From Acidobacteriota bacterium (GTDB taxonomy: Bacteria; Acidobacteriota; Holophagae; Acanthopleuribacterales; Acanthopleuribacteraceae), in NCBI GenBank assembly GCA_020439745.1, contig JAGQSC010000009.1:62001-126000 (forward strand): 64,000 nt of DNA. Reading direction: 5' to 3'. Both the position numbers and the translations under genes were made by a program. Shown here piece after piece: positions 41,709-47,934 of this stretch. How positions within the stretch are numbered: the stretch's first letter is position 1; every line of letters begins with the position of its first letter. The notes beneath the pieces were generated by a model that saw nothing but the letters and a program-made list of their open reading frames with translations, was not told the DNA's origin and made no database searches.

Positions 41709-42980
41709 TTAGCACTTTGCGATACGGATCGCCATGAATCGCTTTTTTCCGGCTCGCAAAATGAATCGATCTTCAGATGAGAAACGGCTCGAAACCAGCG
41801 ATTCCGAATCCTCGATGACGTGATCGTCCCAGCGTGCACCACCGCCCCGGACCAAGCGCCGAGCGTCACTATTGGAGCTAGCCAATTCGGCTTTCACCAG
41901 TAGTTGCGTCCAGGTTAATGATTGCGCGTCGGTCGACGAAATGGTCAGTTCGGGCATGGATACTGATTGTTTGACAGCTACAGATGTAATTTCGGAGGTG
42001 GTTGGGACCTCACCGTTGGGGTCGGCTGATCCGAATCGGGTTACCGCCGTTGCATAGGCTTCGTGAGCGAACGCAGAACCATGGGTGATGCGCGTGGCCT
42101 CAAATCCCAAGATCTCTTTACCTCGATTCACATTTCTGCGACAAATGTCATCAATTTCGTCTATGGGCAGAAAGGTAAAAAGCAACAGGAAACGGCGCAC
42201 GTCGCTATCTTCCACGTTGCGCCAAAACTGATAGAAATCAAGCGGAGATGTGCGGCTGGCGTCCAACCAAATATTGCCCTGCTCGCTTTTTCCGAATTTG
42301 GCGCCACTGCTGTTCGTGATCAGGGGAAAGGTGATCCCATATGCCTGTTCTTCCAAACCCATACGACGACATAGGTCGATACCTGCCACAATATTTCCCC
42401 ACTGGTCCTGACCGCCCATTTGTACCGTGCACCCTTCGTCGCGCAGAAGTACATAAAAATCATAGGCCTGCAGCAACATGTAATTGAATTCAATGAAACT
42501 CAAACCCGTTTCGAGCCGGCTGCGCACGGATTCAGCCGTCAGCATGCGGTTCACGCTAAAGTGCACACCCACATCGCGTAGGAACTGGATGTATCCCATG
42601 GGTACCAGCCAGTCTTTGTTGTTACGCACCAATCCGGCACTGCCGTCGATCTTCAAGTAGCGGCCCAACTGTTCGGCTATTCCCAACTCATTGGCATCGA
42701 TGGTCCCATCGTCGAGCATTTTCCGCATTTCCGTCTTTCCAGATGGGTCGCCTACCCTCGCTGTACCCCCACCAATGATGGCAATGGGGCGATGACCCGC
42801 GGCCTGTAAATGGGCCATCGCCATGATCGGGACCAACGAACCTACGTGTAAGCTATCGGCCGTCGGATCAAAACCCACATAGTAGGTGCGCGGTGTCGAA
42901 AAGTAGTGATCCAATTCCTGCTCGTCGTGGGTTGTCTGATAAATGAAACCTCGGTTCCGCAACGTCGACACAACGCCCAT
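41709..42980 (-). CDS. tyrS: Tyrosine-tRNA ligase
   Basis: Class I synthetase of 423 residues that charges tRNA-Tyr. The HIGH-equivalent is HVGS (45-48), the KMSKS-equivalent is KFGKS in SSGAKFGKSEQGN, and the tyrosine-binding region has YDFYVLLRDEGCTVQMGGQDQWGN. The C-terminal S4 domain is present (LLVKAELASSNSDARRLVRGGGA). ATG at 42980 has GGGAGG in front. It lies 70 bases after the kinase fusion gene on the same strand and could be read through from it. Normal length. Confidence 0.96.
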   Translation of the reverse strand: MGVVSTLRNRGFIYQTTHDEQELDHYFSTPRTYYVGFDPTADSLHVGSLVPIMAMAHLQAAGHRPIAIIGGGTARVGDPSGKTEMRKMLDDGTIDANELGIAEQLGRYLKIDGSAGLVRNNKDWLVPMGYIQFLRDVGVHFSVNRMLTAESVRSRLETGLSFIEFNYMLLQAYDFYVLLRDEGCTVQMGGQDQWGNIVAGIDLCRRMGLEEQAYGITFPLITNSSGAKFGKSEQGNIWLDASRTSPLDFYQFWRNVEDSDVRRFLLLFTFLPIDEIDDICRRNVNRGKEILGFEATRITHGSAFAHEAYATAVTRFGSADPNGEVPTTSEITSVAVKQSVSMPELTISSTDAQSLTWTQLLVKAELASSNSDARRLVRGGGARWDDHVIEDSESLVSSRFSSEDRFILRAGKKRFMAIRIAKC

Positions 42981-43050: not shown

Positions 43051-46000
43051 TTAGTAAGTTACTTGCGAGCGATTTTGGCCCAACATCGACACGTGATCCA
43101 CACCGCCCGGAGGACTGAGTATGCCGTTCATGGAAGGCGACAGTCCGCCAAAATCTGCATTAAACGCGTAAAAGGTCTTGGGCTGAAACAGCGGGAGCCA
43201 AGGTAAGTCCTCTTTGAACAACTCGTTGATCTTCAAGATGATCTGTTTGCGCGATTGACGCGGATGACATTCCAACTGCCATAAAAGTGCGTCCATCTTT
43301 TCCGATGAATAGCCAATGATATTTGCACTACTGCGAGAATGAAGCATATCAGCCAGTCCATCGTAGGAAGGGTCCACGAATGTCATATCCACCCAGCCAT
43401 TCACTTTGGGGTGACTTCGATACTTGGCATATTCTGACATGGGTTTCCATGCGATTTTCAATTTGAAACCGAGCCGCGACCAGTGCTGTGCCATGGCCTC
43501 TAAACACTTGCGCATTTCAGGTAAGTCCGGCATGAGGAACTGAAAGGTAAACGGTTCGTGGTCTTTCACCCAAAGATCGCCAATTAGCTGATAGCCACGT
43601 TTCAGCATCAGTTGAATCAACTTGTCATTCGCCTGACGGAGCGTTTTGGGTGCACCTGAACGGCTTTGGCTTTCCAGGGGCACGGCATTGACGGCCGTAT
43701 ATTCATTGCGCAACAGGGAGTTGACCCAATATTCCAGAAGCTGACACTCATAAAATGCCTGCCTAAACTCACGGTCAAAGGGACCGGAACGATCCATTTT
43801 GAAGCACAGACGAAATACCTTGTTGGCCACATAAAAGTCGCGGACGACCGAGTCTCTGACCTGAACAAGTGGTGTCAAATCACGCCAGCGTTTCAACGTC
43901 ATATATGCCAGATCCACCTGCCCACGGGTGAGGTCCTTGACCGTATCCCCGTCAGAAGCCACCAGATCTAACCGGGCAAGACCATTGGCGCGTTTGTTGA
44001 CGCGTTCTAGTCGCTTCCCTGTACCATCCATACTTGACACCACAAAGGGACCAGACCCATTCATCGCACTCTTGGGATCCAAATCCACGTGGTCCACGTT
44101 GTGGGCATATGCGTATGAAGGGACAATCATCAGTTGACACCAAAACATGAGATTCGGTGGGAGATCATCCGCATAAGTGACGACGACTTGATTTGAGTCT
44201 TCGGTCTCCACGGTTTTGATACGGCGAGCGGCATCGGACAACATGGCATTGAAATACGACTGTTGTTTCATCTGCCTCACTGCAAAGCAAATATCGTCGG
44301 CACGCAACAAGGCGCCATTGTGATATTTCACGCCCTTTTCCAGCTCAAAACGTAACTGTCGGCTATCGGCGTTCCAAGACCAGCGTTTAGCCAGTCTGCC
44401 TACATAGTCCCCGTGTTCATCGAGATCGAGCAGTGTGTCAAAAACCAATCGGGCGAACTGCGCTGCCTCACTGGTATCGACGTGGCTTGGTTGTTGAATA
44501 CCTGACCACGCTGCATCGTTGATGGCCAGCGACTGAGTGGGGCGACTGCGTGTCATGCCCGTCAGGGGCGTCATCAATTGATCGATCTCTTGCCACAGCC
44601 CCTGCGCATTGGCAAACCTGCGTTTGCGGATCTCGATCAACGCCAGTTTATGTAACACCGTGCGTCGCAGCAATGCTGTGTAGCGTTTGGGATCCTCGCC
44701 ATTGGGTACAGGTACATTGGTCAAAACATCAAGAGCTGCCTTGAAATCGACGCCTGCTTCTTGAAGCCGATAGAGACACAACTCCGCTTCGCCTTTCCAG
44801 AAGTATGCCTCAAATAGACTGAGTCGAGGCGGTCCCTGGTAATAGGCAATTGCATGCCCAAGATATTGTTGGGCCTCTTCATACATGTCTCGATCGAAAA
44901 AGAAGAGCGCGATTTCCTTGCTAAACCTAAATACATGAGCAAGTTCCCCAGAAACTGAGGCATGGCGAATGATGGAGAACAGGTAGCGAATATCGTCCTT
45001 GGACTCCACGTGCTCAATTAAGGCAACCATTGCTTGACGGTGGTATTCGACCCGCTGATCGTTGTCTAACGCATCATAGGCGTGACGCTGCAGCCGACTA
45101 TTCACGAACACCACGACGTCTTGATGAAGTGCCACAAAATCCTGCAGGATCAATTCGTTGAGGTGGGTGTCGAACTCACTCTCGACCATTTGAGATGCGC
45201 GAAGCAACACGGCCAACGAAGCCTTGAATCCGAAACAAGAAAGCAAACTCAGTAGCAGTCGCGCGCCCGGAGGCAACAATTCATATTGGCGCATGAGCAC
45301 GTGTGTGATGTTGACCTGAACCGTGGCCTCTTCATCTTCTCGCTGAAAGACCCAACGTCCACTGCGGAACACGAGCAATTCGCGCTCCAGCAGCACCGCC
45401 AAAAGGTTGGCAACCGAGTACGGAAGACCTGAACTCAATTCGGACAATTCTGATAGCAACCCTTGCTCTACTTCATGACCTTCCATGAGGTATTGGGCCA
45501 AATTAGAAACTTCAGGCGCAGCCAGTGGGTTGATCGAAATATGGGTCTTATGGGGAAGTAGATCCACAAAGCCCGCACCACTAATCGACATTGCCGACTC
45601 ATGGTCCCGATTCATGATCAACATCCAAATATAGTCGTTATTACCAGGAGTTGTATCGCCAGACGAGAAAAAGTCGAGAAGTTCCAGCACCTGATCTTGA
45701 CGGAGTTCATGCACATCGTCGATGATGATGACGCCGGGCGAACGCCAACGCTGCGAAAGCAGCTGAGTGACTTGCCGGGGCGTCAGGGTGGCCGATCGAT
45801 AGGCACTTTCAATCAGATCGCTGCGATCTGCGCCGATAAACCGAACCACAGCCGCAAGTAAGCTACCCTCCTCCTGGCTCAGTAACTGGCCCTGAATGAC
45901 GATGGCGCCCATATTGTCTTCCAGACACATGCGGGTGACCGCATCGGCAAAACGAGATTTTCCTGTGCCGGTGGTACCACTGACCAAAGCAGGTTGAGAT

Positions 46001-46980
46001 GAGCGTGAGACCATCCATTCTCGTGCTTGATCGAATTGTTGCTGCCTTCCCACCATGGGCGCATTGCGGATCGTGAGCAACGGCGAAGCACCCAGTTGCA
46101 TTTCTCGGGGTTCGAACTTGGGTTTTGTGTGCTGCAGGTCGAAGAATCCGAGGGCTTCACTGGCGGATCGGTACCGTTGAATGGGGTCACGAGCCACCAT
46201 CTTGTTGGTGGCTTCCACCAACCATTCACAGTCACTCAATTGATCCAGACTCACTTGCGGGCTTTCCCGAGTGGTCTTTTCCCTGAACAAGTCCACAAAG
46301 GAATAGACTTCAAACATCCGTTTACCCGTAATCACGCGATAAAGCATGACGCCCAGTGAATAGATATCAATGCGGTGATCGTAGTTCTTGCCCGTCAACA
46401 TCTCTGGAGCCATGTACTCCAGTGTGCCAATCACTTCTTGGTGCTGGGTTAAAGCCATTTTGCTTTCTTGAAAACGCGCGACGCCGAAGTCCAACAGCTT
46501 GACCTTGCCTTCCGGGGTGATCATGACGTTTTCTGGTTTGAGGTCCCTGTGGATTACCTTGTTCTGGTGCAGGTAATTCAAACCGTGAAGAATCTGTTGC
46601 GTCACGTCCACCAATTGCGTGACCCGGTCAGGATGAATAACTTCGCCCATGTTGCGCACATCAAACTCGTCGCGAAACGTCTTCCCTTCGATGTACTCCA
46701 TGGTGAAAAACGGCCTGGACGCATCGAAATAATCGTAGACTTGAGTCACGCTGGGATGATCCAGCTTTTTGAGTAAATCAAACTCCAAGCGAAACCGCTG
46801 GATCAGTAGGTGGTCTTGCGTGTCTTCTTTAAGTGATTTAACCGCTACGGCCTCGCCAGTATCTTGCCGATGGGCGACGAAAATCTCCCCAACGGCGCCC
46901 ACACCGAGCCTCTTATAGATCTCAAATGGCGCAATCCGTTCATTGACTTCGAAAACGAATGAATCTTGGTAACTAATCAT
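43051..46980 (-). CDS. Ser/Thr kinase - STAND ATPase - helical/TPR - family-5 solute-binding-protein fusion
   Basis: A 1309-residue protein with no signal peptide or membrane segment. Residues 19-275: protein kinase with glycine loop G26-G31 (GVGAVG), Lys48, HRD at 144-146, DFG at 164-166 and APE at 191-193, all intact. About 305-600: STAND/AAA-type ATPase, Walker A GTTGTGKS at 335-342 and Walker B VIIIDDVHE near 417-424, with winged-helix-like sequence after it. About 600-800: helical, TPR-like. About 815-1300: SBP_bac_5 solute-binding domain (VFDTLLDLDEHGDYVGRLAKRW, FELEKGVKYHNGALLRADDI, PWLPLFQPKTFYAF). Such SBPs normally bind oligopeptides in the periplasm. Here the domain is cytosolic, so I infer it senses an internal peptide or small molecule. 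A TATAAT box lies 25 bases upstream. Confidence 0.92.
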   Translation of the reverse strand: MISYQDSFVFEVNERIAPFEIYKRLGVGAVGEIFVAHRQDTGEAVAVKSLKEDTQDHLLIQRFRLEFDLLKKLDHPSVTQVYDYFDASRPFFTMEYIEGKTFRDEFDVRNMGEVIHPDRVTQLVDVTQQILHGLNYLHQNKVIHRDLKPENVMITPEGKVKLLDFGVARFQESKMALTQHQEVIGTLEYMAPEMLTGKNYDHRIDIYSLGVMLYRVITGKRMFEVYSFVDLFREKTTRESPQVSLDQLSDCEWLVEATNKMVARDPIQRYRSASEALGFFDLQHTKPKFEPREMQLGASPLLTIRNAPMVGRQQQFDQAREWMVSRSSQPALVSGTTGTGKSRFADAVTRMCLEDNMGAIVIQGQLLSQEEGSLLAAVVRFIGADRSDLIESAYRSATLTPRQVTQLLSQRWRSPGVIIIDDVHELRQDQVLELLDFFSSGDTTPGNNDYIWMLIMNRDHESAMSISGAGFVDLLPHKTHISINPLAAPEVSNLAQYLMEGHEVEQGLLSELSELSSGLPYSVANLLAVLLERELLVFRSGRWVFQREDEEATVQVNITHVLMRQYELLPPGARLLLSLLSCFGFKASLAVLLRASQMVESEFDTHLNELILQDFVALHQDVVVFVNSRLQRHAYDALDNDQRVEYHRQAMVALIEHVESKDDIRYLFSIIRHASVSGELAHVFRFSKEIALFFFDRDMYEEAQQYLGHAIAYYQGPPRLSLFEAYFWKGEAELCLYRLQEAGVDFKAALDVLTNVPVPNGEDPKRYTALLRRTVLHKLALIEIRKRRFANAQGLWQEIDQLMTPLTGMTRSRPTQSLAINDAAWSGIQQPSHVDTSEAAQFARLVFDTLLDLDEHGDYVGRLAKRWSWNADSRQLRFELEKGVKYHNGALLRADDICFAVRQMKQQSYFNAMLSDAARRIKTVETEDSNQVVVTYADDLPPNLMFWCQLMIVPSYAYAHNVDHVDLDPKSAMNGSGPFVVSSMDGTGKRLERVNKRANGLARLDLVASDGDTVKDLTRGQVDLAYMTLKRWRDLTPLVQVRDSVVRDFYVANKVFRLCFKMDRSGPFDREFRQAFYECQLLEYWVNSLLRNEYTAVNAVPLESQSRSGAPKTLRQANDKLIQLMLKRGYQLIGDLWVKDHEPFTFQFLMPDLPEMRKCLEAMAQHWSRLGFKLKIAWKPMSEYAKYRSHPKVNGWVDMTFVDPSYDGLADMLHSRSSANIIGYSSEKMDALLWQLECHPRQSRKQIILKINELFKEDLPWLPLFQPKTFYAFNADFGGLSPSMNGILSPPGGVDHVSMLGQNRSQVTY

Positions 46981-47127: not shown

Positions 47128-47934
47128 ATGACATTCCCGTTTGTAATGATCTTTATAACAATGACAACCTGGGTTGCCTTGCTTCTCAGGATACGAACCT
47201 GGCGCAATCCACCAGAAAGGGTTTACCCCTTGAGCCAAATGCTCTGGCCGTTGCTGTGGGTGGCGCTTCACCGAGGCATGGAACCGATTCATGAACCGAC
47301 GCTGTTTGACGTGGCGCGGATCAGTTTGATGGTGATGGTGATCTGTGATTTGGTTCATTACTACGGCCTGCAATGGATCAACAAGCGATATCACAGGCTG
47401 GCCATGGTGGGATTGATCGTCTGGATTCTGCCAATGCGTTGGTATGTACTTCCCGGTGATAAGACGCCATTCACTTTGCCTTTCTCAGGTCACGCAATTG
47501 CTTTGTTTGAGGGGACGACACATCTGAGCCAGCTGCGATTCGTGCTTCTTCCCTCTTATCGGGCCAATAACCTCCAAACCATTAGCGATTGGAATTCAGG
47601 TCGGCCGGTTTTTTCGCCATGGAACGGCAAGGTCCTTCAAATCAAGGGTGCATGGGTGCAACTCATTCGCGAGGATCGCATCATTGAGATGGGTCCTTTG
47701 ATGCCCGAATCACTCCAGATCGAATCGGGCTCAGAGGTCTTTTCGGGGCAGCCGCTGGGCATATTGGAGGTAAATGATACTCCAGGCCTCACGATTCGAT
47801 TTATCAAATGGGGTTTTGGATGTCCCCGTTTTCAGGCCGGAATGTCAGGTCGCTTGCTTGCGCATGAACTCAGTGGTTCACGTATTTTCCCTTACGAGTA
47901 CGTGCACGCCACAACGGGGCAAGGATTCAAGTAA
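47128..47934 (+). CDS. Membrane protein with degenerate M23-like C-terminal domain
   Basis: A 268-residue protein. The first 110 residues hold three hydrophobic segments (about 3-20, 65-85, 92-108). The rest is soluble and beta-rich. It reads like a LytM/M23 fold: SGRPVFSPWNGKVLQIKG, a middle strand 'VQLIREDRIIEMG', LMPESLQIESGSEVFSGQPLGILEVND, then TIRFIKWG. In M23 peptidases the pattern carries HxxxD and HxH zinc ligands; none is here. So it may be a non-catalytic M23-like domain, like the activators of cell-wall amidases. No ribosome site is obvious. The 3' end overlaps the convergent oxidoreductase gene by 8 bases. Tentative. Confidence 0.55.
   Translation: MTFPFVMIFITMTTWVALLLRIRTWRNPPERVYPLSQMLWPLLWVALHRGMEPIHEPTLFDVARISLMVMVICDLVHYYGLQWINKRYHRLAMVGLIVWILPMRWYVLPGDKTPFTLPFSGHAIALFEGTTHLSQLRFVLLPSYRANNLQTISDWNSGRPVFSPWNGKVLQIKGAWVQLIREDRIIEMGPLMPESLQIESGSEVFSGQPLGILEVNDTPGLTIRFIKWGFGCPRFQAGMSGRLLAHELSGSRIFPYEYVHATTGQGFK

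Follow-up and report, generated by a model that had tools for sequence, protein, structure and literature searches.

The window analyzed here, a 64,000-nucleotide stretch of an Acidobacteriota genome, carries on its minus strand a complete gene (43051..46980, ATG at 46980) for a 1309-residue protein in which a Ser/Thr kinase domain, a putative STAND-type ATPase, a winged-helix-like region, TPR-like helices and a family-5 solute-binding protein (SBP) domain, SBP_bac_5, follow one another in a single chain. The best explanation for this protein, in our judgment, is a soluble, one-chain, ligand-gated cytosolic sensor kinase, a reading to which we give an even chance. The evidence for it consists of intact motifs, the same domain order in three genomes, similar constraint on SBP and ATPase and retention of core SBP residues.

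Gene and domain architecture

The gene is a single uninterrupted frame of 1309 codons running on the minus strand from 46980 down to 43051, exactly where the earlier note had placed a fused gene, and stops occur throughout the plus strand of 43051-46980. That note had also raised the concern that an assembly frameshift might have joined two genes. An assembly chimera or frameshift that fused a kinase gene with a gene for an importer-type SBP is excluded because two independent orthologues, each with one full-length open frame, are present in other genomes, leaving this explanation vanishingly improbable. One orthologue (1307 aa, 65% identity over the whole length) is from the same genus (genome G001) and the other (1334 aa, 33% identity over the whole length) is from a second genus of the family (G002); both have the same Pfam order as the protein from the genome under study (G000), which confirmed the proposal that homologues would share this order.

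The kinase domain spans residues 14-275 (46156..46941, minus strand), with a Pfam Pkinase match at residues 19-269 (E 6.5e-53) and every catalytic motif of a bacterial Ser/Thr kinase in place, namely the Gly-loop, the VAIK Lys, HRD, DFG and APE. Residues G26/G28/G31, K48, E66, N151, D164/G166 and P192-E193 are invariant in the three orthologues, as are the catalytic-loop H144-R145-D146 (46543..46551, minus strand) and the activation-loop T178 and T186, while the DFG motif (D164-F165-G166; 46483..46491, minus strand) reads DLG in the G002 orthologue. The protein does not belong with the PASTA-type PknB/Stk1 kinases, for which a transmembrane segment, PASTA repeats and a score above 450 were expected; the match gave 207.5 bits and covered the kinase domain alone. 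Membership in the kinase defense systems PD-T4-6 and MAD6, defined by a whole-protein match together with system neighbours, was likewise rejected, as the similarity was confined to the kinase domain and the neighbouring genes are mostly housekeeping genes. The G000 genome (5.1 Mb) contains about 70 Ser/Thr kinase matches.

Downstream of the kinase lies an NTPase core at residues 306-545 (45346..46065, minus strand). Pfam AAA_22 matched residues 329-439 above the cut-off (E 1.7e-9), AAA_16 rose above the cut-off once the NTPase region was scanned by itself, and nSTAND6 was found below the cut-off in the G002 orthologue (E 7.6e-5). We evaluated this region against the features of STAND proteins, which comprise an hhGR motif, Walker A, Walker B, GxP, a winged helix and C-terminal sensor repeats. 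The GR motif (G311-R312) and G518-L519-P520 are invariant in the three orthologues, as are D421-D422 of the Walker B motif VIIIDD (residues 417-422; 45715..45732, minus strand); Walker A (GTTGTGKS, residues 335-342; 45955..45978, minus strand) has the form GTxGTGKS across the orthologues, with most of G335-S342 invariant. From these motifs, together with generic AAA profiles, we infer that the ATPase is of the STAND type. Residues 546-660 (45001..45345, minus strand), among the least conserved parts of the protein, are tentatively assigned as winged-helix-like on the basis of their position and conservation, and are followed by a TPR-like helical region at residues 661-805 (44566..45000, minus strand), in which the Pfam matches to TPR_2 (9.8e-4) and TPR_12 (2.2e-3) both fell below the cut-off. 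The kinase, ATPase and SBP assignments made in the earlier note were therefore borne out by Pfam and invariant motifs, and the TPR-like part by sub-threshold matches only.

Importer-type solute-binding domains are normally located outside the cell, and a Streptomyces protein with a membrane segment between kinase and SBP_bac_5 does exist (see below), so that a membrane-exposed or exported sensor, with its SBP outside the cytoplasm, had to be considered. However, no signal peptide precedes the kinase in any of the three orthologues, and hydropathy analysis revealed no conserved segment of transmembrane strength in any of them; a single peak of 2.08 in the winged-helix region has no counterpart in the orthologues. 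Moreover, the P-loop ATPase lies ahead of the SBP in the same chain. We regard an exported sensor as very improbable, and the cytosolic topology proposed earlier was upheld. The protein also lacks the attributes of an ABC-importer binding protein, as neither a signal peptide nor a lipobox was detected, and no permease or ATPase genes neighbour the fusion loci. Since no membrane segment separates kinase and SBP, the kinase may be switched on or off by the binding of an intracellular small molecule.

Conservation, distribution and gene neighbourhood

Between the G000 and G001 orthologues, identity amounts to 75% in the kinase, 63% in the ATPase, 61% in the winged-helix-like region, 72% in the TPR-like region and 57-63% in the SBP, and most neighbouring proteins of the two genomes share 59-85%. 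The pN/pS ratio was 0.33 for the SBP part and likewise 0.33 for the STAND part, with synonymous sites saturated in this comparison, so that SBP and ATPase are both constrained; the SBP is not decaying. The domain order is kept by selection in two genera. In a phylogeny of the phylum's SBPs, the three fused domains grouped together with full support (100/100) on a long stem, a topology that fits one fusion followed by specialisation.

The expectation of many homologues in one clade did not hold, as just three proteins from two genera of one family were found. The fusion was absent from four other sampled genomes of the family (10-12 Mb). In the larger bulk searches, which scored no more than the two or three top candidates of each genome, it was absent from 396 sampled genomes of the phylum except G000 and G001, and from 331 and 343 genomes of the phyla to which the named Myxococcales and Planctomycetota loci belong; it was also absent from 40 genomes of the Calditrichota phylum. 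Overall, this amounts to absence from about 1,100 genomes in four phyla, with a known positive in the own-phylum sample only, where the G001 orthologue was recovered at E = 0 by the same kind of bulk search. Long SBP frames in other genomes (e.g. G109, G158, G224, G131, G369 and G749) were rejected as fusions because those that were read proved to be importer-type SBPs behind spurious open frames in GC-rich DNA.

A tyrosyl-tRNA synthetase gene (tyrS; 41709..42980, minus strand) lies on the same strand 70 bp downstream of the kinase gene, an adjacency that recurs in G001 only. The neighbours of the G000 and G001 genes further agree in a Gfo/Idh oxidoreductase, a DegT aminotransferase, signal peptidase II and a glutamine cyclotransferase, and the G002 gene adjoins chemotaxis genes. 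No neighbour is conserved across genera, and the neighbourhoods in G000, G001 and G002 point to no pathway. Because the surroundings in G002 differ from those in G000 and G001, the fusion is kept independently of its neighbourhood. The kinase gene's divergent neighbour in the window (47128-47934, plus strand) encodes 268 residues with a hydrophobic N-terminus and no Pfam family, and its product has just 33% identity to the G001 counterpart, in comparison to 59-85% for the flanking genes.

The solute-binding domain and its candidate ligands

The C-terminal region of the protein had been proposed to match an SBP profile, and did so over the full length of the domain. Pfam SBP_bac_5 matched residues 859-1181 (E 1e-24), in a profile match across both lobes, and the Opp4A model matched residues 819-1284. 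Because the latter extends beyond SBP_bac_5 at both ends, we place the domain at about residues 815-1290 (43111..44538, minus strand). A profile built from the three fused SBP regions matched solved family-5 SBPs over nearly its whole length, including AppA (1xoc) over profile positions 21-466 and DppE (8ay0) over positions 23-454 of 494, and the fused domain aligns end to end and collinearly with the phylum's free SBPs. A single-sequence structure model of the SBP region was of low confidence (mean pLDDT 39.7, pTM 0.27). The G000 genome has two SBP_bac_5 matches, the fused gene and a free protein of the importer type with a permease-like gene adjacent; in the G002 genome (3.5 Mb, 94% complete), the fused SBP is the sole match.

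The earlier note had further anticipated a ligand-binding cleft lined by conserved residues; to look for a peptide-type cleft, we used E. coli OppA and DppA as yardsticks. We take W416 and D419 of OppA and D408 of DppA to be the Trp and Asp residues that anchor the peptide N-terminus. The two Asp residues share one alignment column, which corresponds to D1203 (43372..43374, minus strand) and is occupied by D, E or N in the three fused proteins; the W416 position is T, Y or I. The alignment of this loop may be off by one or two positions. R1057 (43810..43812, minus strand) is invariant in the fused SBPs at a position held by Tyr in OppA (mature Y274), DppA, SgrR and most free SBPs. Judged from these three sequences, the OppA/DppA-type peptide site is not conserved. 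This bears on the alternative of a cytosolic oligopeptide sensor, whose SBP would capture peptides released by proteolysis or taken up by the cell. Peptide binders are numerous in family 5, and AppA, DppE and OppA are among the nearest solved relatives; however, nickel, opine and sugar binders are matched by these profiles as well, and a peptide ligand is not supported, given the loss of the anchoring Trp, the loose conservation of the Asp (D/E/N) and the gain of an invariant Arg. We therefore consider an oligopeptide sensor improbable, and binding of a peptide in the manner of OppA or DppA is unlikely.

The main rival to the ligand-gated sensor kinase is that the SBP domain has lost small-molecule binding and now provides a surface for protein-protein contacts or dimerisation in what is otherwise a usual kinase-STAND-TPR protein. 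We found 131 positions to be invariant in all three fused SBP domains, 39 of which are common to most free SBPs and 44 of which are almost confined to the fused domains. Many of these 44 are bulky residues (W, Y, R, H) that could form an interaction surface, and the long stem branch after fusion, the loss of the W416-type Trp and the variable D419-type Asp point in the same direction. Against such a scaffold, the full length of the domain and core SBP residues, including G975, G977, N1220 and Y1224, have been kept, and the cytosolic regulator SgrR of E. coli, which joins an HTH to SBP_bac_5 and binds glutamate in vitro (PMC6775132), shows that ligand binding is possible without the peptide-anchoring residues. 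On balance, we consider a scaffold unlikely but still a serious contender. Weighing against ligand gating are the pocket residues of peptide binders, which have not been kept, and the assessment of cleft conservation on three homologues only.

Proposed mechanism and related systems

The ligand-gated sensor kinase would operate as follows, in a model that leans on the precedents of SgrR, DsvR and PknG. The cleft between the lobes of the C-terminal SBP domain may take up a small solute from the cytosol, and the resulting closure of the lobes would be relayed by the TPR-like helices to the STAND ATPase. The nucleotide switch of the latter would then alter the oligomeric state and move the kinase domains together or apart, and their proximity would set trans-autophosphorylation of the activation loop at T178 and T186, and hence output to substrates. 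The protein may accordingly represent a new class of one-component sensors in the cytosol, whose Ser/Thr kinase is gated, via a STAND nucleotide switch, by a binding domain captured from an importer; we hold this proposal tentatively and with somewhat less than even confidence. Few bacterial Ser/Thr kinases have a known stimulus and few STAND proteins a known ligand, and members of SBP family 5 bind soluble small ligands. With all parts in one soluble polypeptide, a single purified protein could suffice for measuring signal, switch and output, and, if the model is true, the activating metabolite of a kinase could be found by a direct binding assay.

The earlier note had regarded the combination as undescribed. 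In the literature on SBP_bac_5 and Pkinase, we did not find the cytosolic kinase-STAND-TPR-SBP_bac_5 order described, and this soluble combination appears to be new, though each part has precedent; a fusion of kinase and SBP_bac_5 as such does exist in transmembrane form. Pkinase-STAND(AAA_16)-TPR proteins (e.g. L148 in genome G753 of the Myxococcales sample) share the order of kinase, P-loop ATPase and helical repeats, with alignment to the profile running from kinase to TPR, but have no SBP domain, their C-terminus being occupied by a long array of TPRs instead. SgrR and its Vibrio homologue DsvR, which pairs an HTH with SBP_bac_5 at its C-terminus (PMC13060122), likewise carry a C-terminal SBP_bac_5 in a cytosolic regulator; their output, however, is an HTH DNA-binding domain rather than a kinase, and the SBP of SgrR is shorter and very divergent. 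With a kinase in place of the N-terminal HTH by Pfam, the fused protein falls outside the SgrR family. In the GlnH-GlnX-PknG system of actinobacteria, there is evidence for the proposal that an SBP drives a TPR-containing Ser/Thr kinase in amino-acid sensing (PMC8546545). This system comprises three separate proteins across the membrane and has no STAND ATPase, whereas the fused protein is one chain. GlnH also belongs to another SBP family than family 5. Pkinase combined with SBP_bac_3 has been tabulated for actinomycetes (PMC13293324), in the sole paper that came up in the literature searched for SBP_bac_5 and Pkinase together.

MCP-SBP_bac_5 fusions from the same class (family f3) are signalling proteins whose C-terminal SBP_bac_5 is also predicted on the cytosolic side; they differ in their chemoreceptor output, their N-terminal membrane helices and the separate clade formed by their SBPs. 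Such fusions were seen at L128 2500-5643 (G008) and L076 2615-5809 (G022), and in G010 the counterpart appears split into two frames. Taken with SgrR and these chemoreceptor fusions, the present protein points to repeated recruitment of family-5 binding domains for sensing inside the cell.

The transmembrane precedent is Streptomyces WP_329468636.1 (plasmid NZ_CP109497.1), which joins kinase and SBP_bac_5 in one chain of the order Pkinase-TM-SBP_bac_5, but without STAND or TPR regions. Its SBP, distant from the fused SBPs on a long branch, is predicted to be extracellular because a hydrophobic segment at about residues 312-333 separates it from the kinase. The Streptomyces sp. NBC_01431 plasmid locus with this order (L130 3486-6140) is annotated solely as an ABC transporter substrate-binding protein, a product name that misses the kinase.
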